Positions 42,445 to 46,804 of a stretch of DNA of 64,000 nt are shown one piece after another. A program made the translations under genes and the position numbers. The stretch is taken from NCBI RefSeq assembly GCF_000243415.2, contig NZ_KI912270.1, forward strand, positions 2,976,001 through 3,040,000, in the 5' to 3' direction. The notes below the pieces were generated by a model. That model was given only the letters and a program-made list of their open reading frames with translations, searched no databases and had not been told where the DNA came from. The DNA is from Mycolicibacterium tusciae JS617 (GTDB lineage Bacteria > Actinomycetota > Actinomycetes > Mycobacteriales > Mycobacteriaceae). Within the stretch, counting starts at the first letter, position 1. Each line of letters opens with the position of its first letter.

Positions 42445-43353
42445 ATGCAAACGCGCAGTGGGACGGCGGTGTGCGGGGACGTCGAGCTCTACTACGAGGA
42501 TCTCGGCGACCCTGAAACGGCGCCCGTCCTGCTGATCATGGGTGTCGGCGCCCAGCTGCCGATGTGGCCGGACGGGTTCTGCGAGCAGCTCGTCGCGCGG
42601 GGCAATCGGGTGATCCGGTATGACCACCGCGACATCGGGCTGTCCACGAAGATGGCCGGCCACCGCGCGCAAGGGTCGGTGTATCGGCGGGTGGCCCGAT
42701 ATGCGGTCGGCCGGACCAGCCCGGTGCCGTACACGCTGGTCGATATGGCCGACGACGCTGTCTCTCTGCTGGATTATCTGCAGATCGACCGTGCCCACGT
42801 GGTCGGGGCGTCGATGGGCGGGATGATCGCGCAGGTGCTCGCGGGCAACCATCCGTCGCGGGTGCGGTCACTCGGCATCATCATGTCGAGTTCGGGTAGG
42901 GCCTTTTCGGCACTGCCGCGGTGGCGGGTGATCAAGCTGGCGTTCGGCGGTCCGGGCAAAGGCGCGCCGTGGGAAGAAAGGCTGACGTCAGAAGTACGCA
43001 ACATATCGGTCATCAACGGACCGAACTTCCTTCCGCCCGTTGAACAATTGCGCCGACGTGTCGAGGATCTGCGCGCCCGCAGCGACTACCCGCAGGGCAT
43101 GCTGCGGCAGTTCGACGCGATCCTGGGCACCGGGAGCCTGATTCGCTACACGCGCAGCATCGCGGCGCCGACGGTCGTCATCCACGGCTCGGAGGATCCG
43201 ATGGTTCGGCCACGCAATGGGCGCAACCTGGCGCGCCTCATCGAGGGCGCGCGCTATGTCGTCGTCGGTGGCATGGGACATGATCTGCCTGAACCGGTTT
43301 GGCGTCCGGTCGTGGAGGCGTTGACGGAGAACTTCGCGGGCGCAGGGCCTTAA
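42445..43353 (+). CDS. alpha/beta hydrolase, paralogue of LipG
   Basis: A 302-residue hydrolase. Oxyanion region LLIMGVGAQLPMWPDGFCEQ, YDHRDIGLS loop, nucleophile elbow VVGASMGGMIAQ (Ser near residue 117), Asp in VIHGSEDPMV and His in VVGGMGHDLPEP. It is clearly similar throughout to the LipG-like protein at 49204–50103, so the two are paralogues about 6 kb apart. It is the third gene of the WYL-controlled unit. It converges with the next gene (4-bp overlap at the stops). Confidence 0.9.
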   Translation: MQTRSGTAVCGDVELYYEDLGDPETAPVLLIMGVGAQLPMWPDGFCEQLVARGNRVIRYDHRDIGLSTKMAGHRAQGSVYRRVARYAVGRTSPVPYTLVDMADDAVSLLDYLQIDRAHVVGASMGGMIAQVLAGNHPSRVRSLGIIMSSSGRAFSALPRWRVIKLAFGGPGKGAPWEERLTSEVRNISVINGPNFLPPVEQLRRRVEDLRARSDYPQGMLRQFDAILGTGSLIRYTRSIAAPTVVIHGSEDPMVRPRNGRNLARLIEGARYVVVGGMGHDLPEPVWRPVVEALTENFAGAGP

Positions 43354-43709
43354 GGATAACGGGCCATGGCATCCCAGAAGGCGTTGTCGTCGCGACCCAT
43401 GCTTCGGTCCGCCTCTTCGCGTAACCCTGCTGCTCGCTGGTGGATGTAATGCCCGGTTGAGCGCGGCATCTGCCCAGGCCCGTACACGCCGCGTCGAATC
43501 CGGCGGACCCGACCGCGTCGCATTTCGGTGCGCAGCGCATCGGACACCGTCTTCGATGCGCGGCCGGGGATCGCAAAGCCCTGGTACTCGAGCTGTTCGA
43601 TCAGCTCAAAGATGGACGCCGAACCGTGGATGTCGAGGTTTACTGTGAGCATGTAGCGGAGCTCGGTGCCCTGCAGCACTTTTCGCTGCGGGATTCTCGA
43701 AGTCGTCAT
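43350..43709 (-). CDS. small winged-helix-like hypothetical protein
   Basis: A 119-residue protein from ATG 43709 (MTTSRIPQRKVLQGTELRYM). The middle, SIFELIEQLEYQGFAIPGRA followed by SDALRTEMRRGRVRRIRRGVYG, looks like a winged helix-turn-helix of the kind that ends in 'GRG.Y', so a DNA-binding role is plausible. A longer frame to 43853 would start inside the REP-like repeat and was not preferred, though it would add residues encoded by that repeat. Family not recognised. Confidence 0.6.
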   Translation of the reverse strand: MTTSRIPQRKVLQGTELRYMLTVNLDIHGSASIFELIEQLEYQGFAIPGRASKTVSDALRTEMRRGRVRRIRRGVYGPGQMPRSTGHYIHQRAAGLREEADRSMGRDDNAFWDAMARYP

Positions 43710-43822
43710 GGCACGACCGTGGCACTCCGCAGTGACATTTTCAGGCGTCCCGGGTGCAGGTGCGTCTGCGCCTGTGGATAGCTTGGGGGCGGCAGCTGGG
43801 CCTCCCGGACCAATGTGACATC

Positions 43823-43904
43823 GTGCCAAGCTCATAGCGACTTTGTCGCTCAACTACTACCGCCGCCACCAACGTCAGCGACTTTGTCGCTCAGAGCTTG
43901 GCAC
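43823..43904. repeat. REP-like 82-bp repeat, copy B (intact)
   Basis: Ends form a 19-bp terminal inverted repeat with two mismatches (GTGCCAAGCTCATAGCGAC against the complement of the right end). Inside are two identical small palindromes, AGCGACTTTGTCGCT, separated by a CAACTACTACCGCC-type spacer. A shared flank (CCTCCCGGACCAA at 43801) precedes it and CACCTACATATGCCCC follows. No coding capacity; it could fold as a cruciform or double hairpin. Confidence 0.85.
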
Positions 43905-43992
43905 CACCTACATATGCCCCCAGAGGACCTGCCTCAGCGCAGGTACGACACGAACGCGGGAACCCGCCAATTCCCGGCGTCCAAGGTGTCCC

Positions 43993-44016
43993 GGCCTCCC
44001 GGCCTCCCGGCCTCCC
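43993..44016. repeat. 8-bp tandem repeat GGCCTCCC x3
   Basis: Three perfect tandem copies directly before the flank of repeat copy C. Likely a slippage tract; copy B has one unit at the same relative position. Confidence 0.7.
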
Positions 44017-44032
44017 GGACCAACGTGACTTC

Positions 44033-44042
44033 GTGCCAACCT
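44033..44042. repeat. REP-like repeat copy C, left 10 bp (split by IS110)
   Basis: GTGCCAACCT, the left end of a third repeat copy. Its remaining 72 bp are at 45558–45629; 10 + 72 gives exactly the 82 bp of copy B. The upstream flank CTCCCGGACCAACGTGACTT also matches copy B. Confidence 0.82.
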
Positions 44043-44112
44043 AATGGGATTTGATCGGCGCGTCGTTGGCGAACTTTCGAGGGTGTTGGCGAGACGCTGA
44101 TTGGGTGAGCCG

Positions 44113-44242
44113 CTGGCCGGTGAGCACTTTGCCAACCTGGAACGGTCGTTGATTCCTACTGTAGAGATCGCGCCCCGGCCAGTTGGTGGCCACCTGTAGT
44201 GCTACTGGGATGTCGTGCCGATTTGAGCACTTATCCATTAGG
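44113..44242 (+). ncRNA. candidate IS110 bridge RNA (target and donor guide loops)
   Basis: Target loop: CTGGCCGG (44113–44120) pairs perfectly with CCGGCCAG (44175–44182); the 5' side of the loop has TGCCAACCT (44130–44138), identical to the left target plus core CT at 44034–44042. Donor loop: CTGGGATGTC (44205–44214) is identical to the right end of the element including the first core base (45547–45556), and CCATTAG (44235–44241) is the reverse complement of core CT plus the first five left-end bases (44041–44047); between them GTGC…GCAC can close a small hairpin. The right-target guide is unclear. Exact RNA ends are not known. Confidence 0.6.
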
Positions 44243-44311
44243 TCGCAACTGGGTGCCTCAGGCTCGACAGGGTGGCTGTGCCACCACAGATCGAGGAGGA
44301 AGGGTGAGGTG

Positions 44312-45535
44312 ATGTTGTTTGTCGGCGATGACTGGGCCCAAGACCATCACGACGTGTACTTGATGGATGAGGAGGGCGCTCGGTTCGCGGCTCGGCGACT
44401 CCCCGAAGGGTTGACCGGTATCGGGCGGCTGCACGAGATGATCGCTGCCCATGGCGAAGATCCCGGCGAGGTGATCGTGGGGATCGAGAAAGACCACGGT
44501 CTGTGGGTGGGCGCGTTGGCCGCCAGCGGCTATCAGGTGTATGCGATCAATCCGATGGCGGTCGCGCGTTACCGTGATCGACACAGCGTCTCGGGGGCGA
44601 AATCCGATGGCGCCGATGCGAAATTGTTGGCCGACCTGGTACGCACCGATCGGCACAACCATCGCCTTCTGGTCGGAGACAGCGATCAGGCCGAGTCGAT
44701 CAAGGTGTTGGCGCGGGCACATCAGAATCTGATCTGGACTCGAGCACGTCAGATCAGCATGTTGCGTGCGGGGTTGTTGGAGTATTACCCGGCGGCGTTG
44801 CAGGCGTTCCCCAATCTCGGCGACCGTGATCGCGACCGCGATGCTCTGGCGGTGTTGGGCCGTGCCCCCACGCCGGGTCAGGGTGCCCGGCTAAGCCTGA
44901 GCAAGATCGCCGCAGCGCTCAAAGCGGGTGGGCGCCAACGCGGTATCGATGAACGCGCCCGTGAGATCCAGGCCCTGCTGCGCGGCCAGCAGCTGCACGC
45001 ACCTGCAGCCGTGACGGCAGCCTACGGGGCCGCCACCAGCGCCTCGGTGAACATCGTGGTCGAGCTGACCAATCAGATCAGCGCGGTGGAAACCGAACTG
45101 GCTGAGCATTTTAGGACGCACCCGGACGCCGACATCTACCTCTCCCTGCCAGGACTCGGTGTCATCCTCGGCGCCCGGGTGCTCGGTGAGTTCGGGGACG
45201 ACCCGAACCGATTCACCGACGCTAAGTGTCGCAAAAACTACGCCGGAACCTCACCGGTAACCGTGGCTTCTGGCCGAAAACGTGCCGTCCTGGCCCGACA
45301 CGTGCGTAACCGACGGCTCTACGACGCGCTCGACCGCTGGGCCTTCGCCACCCTCAAATGCAGCCCCGGTGCCCGCGCCTTCTACGACCACCACCGCGCC
45401 GCCGGCGACACCCACCACAAAGCACTGCGCGCTCTGGCCAACCGACTCGTCGGAATCCTGCACGGTTGCCTACGCCACCACACGCCCTATAACGAAGACA
45501 CCGCCTGGGCACACCGCCTGCCCGCCGCCGCTTGA
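44312..45535 (+). CDS. IS110-family transposase (DEDD recombinase)
   Basis: A 407-residue transposase. The N-terminal RuvC-like DEDD domain begins MLFVGDDWAQDHHDVYLMDE (first Asp), continues with VIVGIEKDHGL (Glu) and SGAKSDGADAKLLADL (two Asp). The C-terminal Transposase_20 domain includes LSLPGLGVILGARVLGE and KNYAGTSPVTVASGRKRAV, whose Ser region is expected to be catalytic. The start at 44312 was chosen over 44183 because the longer frame would translate the guide-RNA region; GAGGAGGAAGG precedes the ATG. It looks intact, so the element may be active. Confidence 0.93.
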   Translation: MLFVGDDWAQDHHDVYLMDEEGARFAARRLPEGLTGIGRLHEMIAAHGEDPGEVIVGIEKDHGLWVGALAASGYQVYAINPMAVARYRDRHSVSGAKSDGADAKLLADLVRTDRHNHRLLVGDSDQAESIKVLARAHQNLIWTRARQISMLRAGLLEYYPAALQAFPNLGDRDRDRDALAVLGRAPTPGQGARLSLSKIAAALKAGGRQRGIDERAREIQALLRGQQLHAPAAVTAAYGAATSASVNIVVELTNQISAVETELAEHFRTHPDADIYLSLPGLGVILGARVLGEFGDDPNRFTDAKCRKNYAGTSPVTVASGRKRAVLARHVRNRRLYDALDRWAFATLKCSPGARAFYDHHRAAGDTHHKALRALANRLVGILHGCLRHHTPYNEDTAWAHRLPAAA

Positions 45536-45557
45536 CAACTAAAAAGCTGGGATGTCT

Positions 45558-45629
45558 CGCAGCGACTTTGTCGCTCAACTACTACCGCCGCCACCAACGT
45601 CACCGACTTTGTCGCTCAGAGCTTGGCAC
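45558..45629. repeat. REP-like repeat copy C, right 72 bp (split by IS110)
   Basis: Continues copy C after the element: contains AGCGACTTTGTCGCT, the AACTACTACCGCCGCC spacer, CCGACTTTGTCGCT and the right inverted end GAGCTTGGCAC. The flank CACCTATATATGCCCC matches copy B with one base change. Confidence 0.85.
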
Positions 45630-45670
45630 CACCTATATATGCCCCAAGAGACCAGCCGTACCCCAAGTAC

Positions 45671-46072
45671 TCACTCCAGTTCGGCGAGAGCCTTGCGGGC
45701 TGCCTCCAGTTCGGCCTCCAGTGCAGCGACCTTGGCCGCCTGCTGGGAGCGCGCCTCCTCGATCAACTCGTCGATCGGGGCGGAAAGATCCTCGTGCAGT
45801 TCCTTCGCGGCGCGGGAGACCGCGGCGGCCGCGACCGCAAGATTGCGTGCTCGATACGTGCTGCCGTGCTTCAGTTCGGCCCGCCATTCGCCGTCGGCGG
45901 TACCGGTGACCGTGAGGGTCAGCTCGAGCGTCTTGGGCTTCTTGCCGGCCGGCTTCTTGGCCGGAGCCTTCTTTGGCTTCTCTTCGACCGGGTCTTCCAC
46001 GGGCGGAACCACCGCGTGCGGCGTGTCGGAATAGATGGACTGCGCTTCGGGTGCCAAGGTATCTACGGACAT
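45671..46072 (-). CDS. DUF6319-like charged protein
   Basis: A 133-residue protein from ATG 46072. The N-terminal half is a Pro/Lys/Ala linker (KPKKAPAKKPAGKKPKTLE), the middle a small beta region (LTLTVTGTADGEWRAELKHG) and the C-terminal third a helical, Ala/Glu-rich coiled coil. The layout fits DUF6319 proteins of actinobacteria; function unknown. The basic Lys/Pro/Ala segment could bind nucleic acid. Confidence 0.65.
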   Translation of the reverse strand: MSVDTLAPEAQSIYSDTPHAVVPPVEDPVEEKPKKAPAKKPAGKKPKTLELTLTVTGTADGEWRAELKHGSTYRARNLAVAAAAVSRAAKELHEDLSAPIDELIEEARSQQAAKVAALEAELEAARKALAELE

Positions 46073-46111
46073 GGCTCCATTAGAACACATGTTCGATAGA
46101 AGGAGTCCCGC

Positions 46112-46708
46112 TCAGCGCAGGACCGTCTGCACCGCGTACTCGACCACTACATCGAGATCGTCGCCGAGGTTGCCTGCCAGCCACTGTTGGGCCAATTCGG
46201 CCATCGCGCCGGTGTACAGGGCGGCACCCACTTGTGCCGCAACGGGATCCGAGCCAGGGTTCAGCCGCCAACCTTCGGTCAGCACGCCCTCGCGAAGCAG
46301 ATCCTGCGTCGCCTTCCGACGCGCTGCGAGAACCGGATTGGCTCGCGCATCGGTGAACAGGATCCGGCCGCGGCGCGGGTCGGCCGAACTGAACCCGAGG
46401 ACCGCGGCGATACCTGCCCGCGTCCGATCCCGAAGTGACTCACCAGACGCGGTGATCGCCGCCTCGACCTCGGCGCCCAACAACGCGCTGACTTGGTCGT
46501 AGACCGCACCGAGCAGATCGTCGGTGTCGGCGAAGCTCTCGTAGAAGTACCGGGTGTTCAGTCCGCACTCACGACACACCGACCGTACGGCTATGGCGGC
46601 CTCACCGCCGTCACCAAACAGGCGGAACGCGGCATCGATCAGCTGCGCTCGCCGTTCGGCGCGGCGGTCGATCAGCGGCACGCCGGCCCATCGGGTCGGA
46701 CTGGACAT
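46112..46708 (-). CDS. TetR family transcriptional regulator
   Basis: A 198-residue TetR regulator with HTH at about residues 30–60 (AIAVRSVCRECGLNTRYFYE) and a mostly helical ligand domain. It is divergent from the MpaB-type oxygenase gene; the 97-base gap holds a strong palindrome, so it probably represses that gene and itself. Confidence 0.9.
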   Translation of the reverse strand: MSSPTRWAGVPLIDRRAERRAQLIDAAFRLFGDGGEAAIAVRSVCRECGLNTRYFYESFADTDDLLGAVYDQVSALLGAEVEAAITASGESLRDRTRAGIAAVLGFSSADPRRGRILFTDARANPVLAARRKATQDLLREGVLTEGWRLNPGSDPVAAQVGAALYTGAMAELAQQWLAGNLGDDLDVVVEYAVQTVLR

Positions 46709-46765
46709 CAGCCCAGAGTAAGCCCGCGGCGGCCAACTCTGGTCACATCCGTATCCAACTAGTAT

Positions 46766-46787
46766 TCTGGTTACAGATGTGACCAGA
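46766..46787. promoter_or_regulatory. palindromic operator between tetR and mpaB-like gene
   Basis: A 22-bp dyad with arms TCTGGTTACA and TGTGACCAGA (one mismatch). A second half-site GGTCACATC lies at 46741–46749. TAGTAT (46761–46766) at the edge would serve as a –10 for the plus-strand gene, so binding would block it. Confidence 0.65.
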
Positions 46788-46804
46788 CTTCAGAAGGGAA
46801 CGCC

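Follow-up and report, generated by a model that had tools for sequence, protein, structure and literature searches.

The window, by which we mean the whole 64,000-nucleotide stretch of mycobacterial DNA that was analysed, holds a complete insertion sequence of the IS110 group, with the core dinucleotide CT at 44041-44042 on the left and at 45556-45557 on the right. Its ends are unequal, with 269 bases on the left and 20 on the right, and the predicted RNA described below lies in the left end. The left non-coding end (44043..44311, plus strand) begins with the right-donor bases AATGG (44043-44047), and the left donor CTGGGATGT with the right core CT (45547..45557) was unchanged in the five copies. 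Repeats of 2-3 bp, subterminal and placed around the donor, are described for the IS110 group in PMC11208160. Between the ends, 44312..45535 (plus strand) encodes a predicted DEDD recombinase of 407 aa with PF01548 (E 9.4e-32) and PF02371 (E 7.6e-12), both above cut-off; recombinases of the IS110 group are described as having about 300-460 aa and the same two domains (PMC11208160). A comparison with the IS621 recombinase in PDB gave a weak match (E 1.3e-4) made of two weak stretches, and the residues D, E, D..D and a serine align by eye with those of IS621, in an alignment that is itself weak (domain i-Evalues 19 and 0.061).

The element occurs five times in the genome, its copies being 98-100% identical, and a partial relative with 74% identity is also present. 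The left non-coding end is the same in all five copies except for one substitution at 44224 in copy L004. In the window, the left target TGCCAAC and the left core CT occupy 44034..44042; copies L002 and L004 are flanked by the identical nine bases and copies L003 and L005 by a version with one substitution (TGCCAGCCT). We counted four distinct local sites because L003 and L005 have the same left flank and right flanks that begin alike. These two copies lie about 4.3 kb apart (G000 C4 3146608 and 3142298); the left flank shown is common to both, as are some 30 bases of right flank before the sequences diverge, as if from a local duplication.

The left flanks of the four sites read TGCCAAC-CT (three) or TGCCAGC-CT (one), and the right flanks start CT-CGCAG, CT-CACAG, CT-CTGAG and CT-ATGAG, each followed by CGAC. 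In the window, the right target CGCAG runs into the inner palindrome AGCGACTTTGTCGCT of the target repeat (45558..45575, plus strand). All four sites fit the arm of a dispersed palindromic repeat, TGCCANNCTNNNAGCGACNNTGTCGCT, which occurs at 19 places in the genome at up to 3 mismatches (control 1), with 14 of these places grouped into seven inverted pairs at a distance of 52-54 bases. Of the 196 genus genomes, 49 contain the repeat in a looser form, and the backward control occurred once in each of 4. To our knowledge, this repeat has no name. An unoccupied paralogous repeat beside the element (43824-43903) carries a single CT (43831-43832) at the insertion point, and CT is present at both ends of the element. 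In comparison with this unoccupied repeat, 90 of 95 bases are identical in the right flank of the element; in the left flank 39 of the 49 bases that align are identical, and the similarity is strongest next to the core. These data suggest that dispersed palindromic repeats are the homing sites of this lineage, as they are of IS621. When 41 genomes including its own were searched with 43100-46800, only the window, among the matches listed, spanned both flanks. The occupied repeat copy corresponds to 44034-44042 and 45556-45628. The repeat usually has two inverted target arms, and many of its places lie in G000 C4 between 3.00 and 3.35 Mb.

Relatives of the element were collected from named genomes (47 loci), from the genus (198 then 396 genomes in overlapping sets, of which 39 and 31 had a match at E 1e-60 and 1e-170) and from the family (301 genomes, 10 with a match at E 1e-160); extra copies were added. 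Loci were kept if their best protein segment was at least 60% identical and a left end was present. Sixteen loci without a left end or matching from inside the gene were left out, as were L057, L058 and L086, which have no CTAATGG; the right donor was in this way part of locus selection. The 95 loci kept were reduced to 77 by removing identical sites and then to 39 distinct guide sets, one of which (L037) has no right flank. Left ends were aligned without use of the flanks. The copies of one relative (G064) have their left guide one column out of register in this alignment and were scored mostly as mismatched, though TGCCCAC is in the RNA. This relative (L091-L097 and L161; 78-79% identity) has a right end more than 300 bases longer with a second end-like stretch inside it; seven of its eight aligned copies lie in a related sequence, CTA[CT]CCGCGACAA, and L092 lies in CTCACAGCGACAA.

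A covariance model built on 38 relatives, with every copy from this genome excluded, matched the left end at 44106..44248 (plus strand; 125.2 bits, E 1.5e-25), and the next best match in the 64 kb had E 2.3. This segment is the predicted core of a bridge RNA, made of a target loop and a donor loop. Of 35 IS110-group loci that are more distant, the same model recovered 32 at E < 1e-3 and missed L047, L089 and L098; these 35 loci have less than 60% identity and were picked by hand, several further copies from the same genomes being omitted. In the 38-row alignment 98.0% of cells were paired, compared with at most 48.9% when partners were slid by 1-3 columns. Changes on both sides were found in 14 of 28 pairs (shuffled mean 5.0) and in 42 cells (7.5 when shuffled), numbers reached in none of 500 shuffles in either case. 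Folding the single sequence 44096-44260 gave a structure no stabler than shuffles (z -0.04), and structural support comes from the alignment, not from single-sequence folding. Between 43900 and 45700, Rfam gave no bridge-RNA match; besides Ms_AS-4, discussed below, it gave only sR30 (E 2.3, below cut-off).

The target loop is closed by an 8-bp stem of 44113..44120 with 44175..44182 (plus strand). It belongs to helix 1 of the alignment, in which 98.4% of cells are paired and 10 of 17 pairs changed on both sides. Inside the stem, between the target guides, a scaffold hairpin (helix 2, 44139..44156) pairs GGAA (44139-44142) with TTCC (44153-44156), and 3 of its 4 pairs changed on both sides. The donor loop contains the hairpin GTGC...GCAC (helix 4, 44215..44230), whose four pairs are invariant in 38 of 38 sequences. 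The preliminary description, made from the letters of this stretch, had already noted the 8-bp stem, which is present in the sequence. It had proposed a check with a covariance model, which the model built on relatives now bears out, and had held that the lack of a conserved two-loop structure would speak against a bridge RNA; the two-loop structure is conserved in the 38 relatives.

Covariation between the RNA and the insertion sites was analysed in an unbiased scan of 292 RNA columns against 44 target positions in 2 senses, using the 39 guide sets. The nine strongest cells (z 5.33-7.82) all fell on the left target guide, the right target guide or a handshake position, compared with a null in which 300 shuffles reached a maximum z of 4.92 at 99% and 5.32 at most. 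They comprised the same-sense cells 44135/-2, 44136/-1, 44133/-4 and 44134/-3, the antisense cells 44160/+5, 44162/+3, 44161/+4 and 44164/+2, and the antisense cell 44242/-1. Tenth in rank is an unrelated cell, 44307 against -2 (z 4.4), ahead of 44131 and 44132 of the left guide (z 4.4 and 4.0); these two positions do not exceed the maximum of the whole-scan null, while 44133-44136 do.

The left target guide, TGCCAACCT (44130..44138, plus strand), is identical to 44034-44042, as had been proposed, and its positions 44131-44136 covary with target positions -6 to -1. In per-position tests, none of 3000 shuffles reached the observed values at -6 to -1 or at +3 to +5, whereas 5 did so at +2, 124 at +6 and 685 at -7; position -7 gives no signal, and the core positions vary too little for the test. 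Over the whole guide (-7 to -1), 170 cells matched against 90.5 expected, and for the right guide (+2 to +6) 153 cells matched against 89.3 expected, with 0 of 5000 shuffles in both cases over the 39 guide sets. The 5' guide pairs with the bottom strand and the 3' guide with the top strand, and both covary with their targets. The test first suggested for the left guide, covariation with the left flank of each copy, gave 0 of 3000 shuffles at each of -6 to -1 over the 39 guide sets. Copies at different targets with an unchanged 44130-44138 had been expected to speak against a guide; three of the four local sites match the left guide fully and the fourth matches with a single mismatch.

Shuffle counts are not probabilities, since shuffling ignores shared ancestry, and elements found at several sites give an independent view. 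One element with the right target guide GCTCTAG is inserted at the right targets CTAGAGC, CTAGAGG and CTAGAGT. Another, with the right guide GCGATAG, is inserted at CTATCGG, CTATCGC, CTATCGC and CTATCGG. Pairing of the left guide is looser in some relatives. For a third element (G661; L134, L141, L149, L151 and L152), matches amount to 2-5 of 7 for the left guide and 3-4 of 5 for the right guide, which suggests that the stringency of the two guides is uneven.

The structure lies directly upstream of the gene, as would be expected if the left end were a cis-acting leader that folds to control expression of the recombinase, with incidental matches to the flanks. Two loop segments nevertheless change with the insertion site, in opposite senses and at fixed distances from the core, across 39 guide sets, and a leader has no reason for such site-linked changes, which makes this explanation very improbable. 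We give equally little credence to the proposal that the site is chosen by DNA-DNA homology or by protein recognition and that the left end just carries copied target sequence. Target and guide do share sequence, and the sites lie in a repeat whose similarity reaches past the guides; the matched bases, however, are about 90-125 bp away from the crossover and include one antisense set, and both sets of guides are placed in loops of a structure that shows compensatory changes. We consider it highly probable that the left end encodes a bridge RNA which pairs with the insertion site and with the element's own ends to choose the landing site. Covariation of the target guides and the held-out model support what the preliminary description had proposed, namely a bridge RNA in the left end with this loop order, guide polarity and CT core; its interpretation is supported and its observations are confirmed in part.

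The part that did not stand concerns the right target guide. The covarying segment is CTGTAGAG (44159..44166, plus strand), complementary to the core CT and the right target, with 44160-44162 and 44164 covarying with +5 to +2; it directly precedes the closing stem and is one base longer than in most relatives. The preliminary description had left this guide unexplained and named GTCGTTG (44145-44151), which is part of the scaffold hairpin (helix 2), as its best match. A bridge RNA with GTCGTTG as right target guide, pairing with CAGCGAC past the core, would account for the pairing that this segment forms, one G.U included, with AGCGAC at the local sites and for column 44150, which matches +5 beyond chance (8 of 2000 shuffles). 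The other six of its seven columns match the right target at chance level and include near-constant ones, such as 44149 and 44151 (T in 34 and G in 38 of 39, respectively), and the right guide that does covary is 44160-44164 (z 5.3-7.8). GTCGTTG was rejected as right target guide, a role that we regard as very improbable.

When read contiguously, the right target guide CTGTAGAG forms 4, 4, 6 and 5 of 7 pairs at the four local sites (G.U counted). When one base is flipped out, the same sites give 7, 7, 7 and 6 of 7 pairs, the site with 6 being that of L004. The extra base is common to two relatives, of which the one at 83% (G253) reaches 7 of 7 pairs and the G064 element reaches 7 of 7 at six of seven copies, its copy L092 giving only 4 of 7. 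Controls gave 7 pairs with 3.3, 6.0 and 4.9% of random targets beginning with CT, taking the three guides in turn, and with 0, 0 and 5 of 34 right targets from other elements. The claim is suggestive, because the best flipped base differs between sites and is not constant; judged from these pairings, one base of the right target guide is probably flipped out in this element.

In the donor loop, CTGGGATGTC (44205..44214, plus strand) is identical to 45547-45556 and CCATTAG (44235..44241, plus strand) is the reverse complement of 44041-44047, that is, of the core and right donor; both matches had been pointed out in the preliminary description and are confirmed in the sequence. The pairing proposed there stood and the donor names did not: in the published convention (PMC11208160 / PMC11208158) the left end of the element holds the right donor and the right end the left donor, and the two segments are named left and right donor guide, respectively. 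They match the element ends over 10 and 7 bases and are nearly invariant in relatives, which is why covariation cannot test them. The scan for the left donor showed no signal, its best cell (z 4.1) being at an unrelated column. From the sequence match, the donor-loop guides are predicted to pair with the joined ends of the element itself.

Immediately after the right donor guide lies a handshake guide (44242..44243, plus strand). Of the 39 guide sets, 38 allow pairing of 44242 with target position -1 (G:C in 33, T:A in 3 and C:G in 2; the remaining one has G against G), compared with 29.2 expected and 0 of 20000 shuffles; here, a donor-loop base covaries with non-cognate DNA. In IS621, the base after the right donor guide is described as pairing with the last base of the left target after strand exchange (PMC11208160 / PMC11208158). 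For the second base, 44243 against -2, the result was not significant (2324 of 20000 shuffles). By analogy with A81/U82 of IS621, the bases AT at 44167..44168 (plus strand) are predicted to be the handshake bases of the target loop and would pair with the last bases of the left donor after strand exchange.

A -35 box, TTGACA (45532..45537, plus strand), lies over the stop codon of the recombinase gene. Together with TCT (45555-45557) and AAT (44043-44045), it would give TTGACA-17-TCTAAT across a circle junction. A TTGA-type -35 box at a spacing of 17-18 from TCTAAT is present in 38 of the 38 guide sets that have a right end, a count of consensus matches among related sequences in which AAT and CT are fixed by the selection pattern. 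The junction of a circle would in this way carry a predicted promoter, of the rebuilt kind described for IS110 elements (PMC11208160).

Collectively, the data are consistent with the following mechanism. The left end would encode a bridge RNA at least about 143 nt long. By homology with known elements, excision would make a circle whose joined ends rebuild the promoter TTGACA-17-TCTAAT, and the RNA transcribed from this circle would be bound by the 407-aa recombinase. The first loop would pair with the insertion site through a right target guide with one extra base, probably flipped out, and the second loop (44205-44214 and 44235-44241) may pair with the joined ends of the element, while its base 44242 would pair with the last base of the left target. 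The recombinase would then cut at the CT cores and exchange strands, placing the element in palindromic repeats.

The element contains a further conserved segment inside the recombinase gene, where Rfam matched the sRNA Ms_AS-4 (RF02464) in antisense (45145-45226, minus strand). At 45113-45196, 93% of pairs among 36 distinct relatives use identical codons where the residue is the same (43% expected), and codons such as CAT, CCA, GGA and CGG were fixed in 34-36 of the 36. Outside about 45068-45277, the sliding windows printed gave 42-65% codon identity, with 75% in the last one. In 28 sequences (that of the window and relatives of less than 60% identity), the peak was found at the same place and was weaker, 59% against 44%. 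The antisense Ms_AS-4 match was found in the gene of 20 of 20 relatives scanned. At E <= 0.001, 30 of the 196 genus genomes have a match, 26 of them passing the cut-off, compared with 0 of 14 control genomes, and 47 of 62 listed matches overlap a listed recombinase place when the two tables are compared. In tests for RNA covariation in the block, compensatory cells numbered 3 on the plus strand, where 17 were broken, and 1 on the minus strand, where 23 were broken, so few that folding does not name an acting strand. The block of strong synonymous constraint, about 45107-45244, coincides with the antisense Ms_AS-4 match and suggests a second conserved RNA or DNA/RNA signal in the element subfamily. 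The partial relative at 74% identity (G000 C4 4601398-4602294; L006, L110) has its own Ms_AS-4 match, and its left end was not recovered. The bridge RNA is complementary to the constrained block over no more than 8 bases, which was treated as chance. We put forward tentatively, as possible rather than probable, that the element has two conserved RNAs, the bridge RNA and an opposite-strand RNA (about 45107-45244, overlapping Ms_AS-4) that may set the level of recombinase or join the recombination complex, and that the subclade has a right target guide with one flipped-out base, a discontiguity described for the right donor guide of IS621.

The bridge RNA of IS621, a member of the IS110 group, was described in 2024 (PMC11208160, PMC11208158). 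Because bridge RNAs are predicted in 85.7% of IS110-group elements (PMC11208160), the element is another case of a known kind, a new example of the mechanism described in 2024 and here supported by natural covariation. The string 'mycobacteri' is absent from the main text of PMC11208160 and PMC11187229, and 'IS900' from the main text of PMC11187229; among the literature matches listed, no title concerned a mycobacterial IS110 bridge RNA, a scope that did not extend to the supplement of PMC11208160 with its thousands of predicted RNAs. In this actinobacterial subfamily, covariation reveals both of the target guides together with one handshake base, and the 39 natural guide sets are a ready collection of natural retargeting events. 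Guides may also accommodate one flipped base where they pair with the right target.

Several features are shared with IS621, whose recombinase is distant (E 1.3e-4): an RNA in the left end with the target loop before the donor loop, a CT core, a 9-nt left target guide that includes both core bases, a (predicted) left donor guide that includes the first core base only, a handshake base, a (predicted) promoter rebuilt at the junction, and insertion in palindromic repeats, which are REP in E. coli for IS621. The right guides differ. The signal of the right target guide reaches +5, four positions past the core, whereas that of IS621 reaches two; longer right target guides are reported for some IS621 orthologues (PMC11208160 / PMC11208158). 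Unlike in IS621, the right target guide is probably discontiguous here and the right donor guide is contiguous (7 bp), while the right donor guide of IS621 is discontiguous, with flipped bases. The IS1111 group also combines a DEDD recombinase with a predicted bridge RNA, and is described as having the RNA in the right end, with long subterminal inverted repeats there (PMC11208160); here, in contrast, the predicted RNA occupies the left end, with a right end of 20 bases, which sets the element apart from that group. The seekRNA of IS110/IS1111 elements was described in 2024 as 145-170 nt long with a more abundant form of 70-100 nt (PMC11187229). As with seekRNA, an upstream non-coding region is predicted here to determine the RNA that selects the target, and relatives have undergone natural re-programming.
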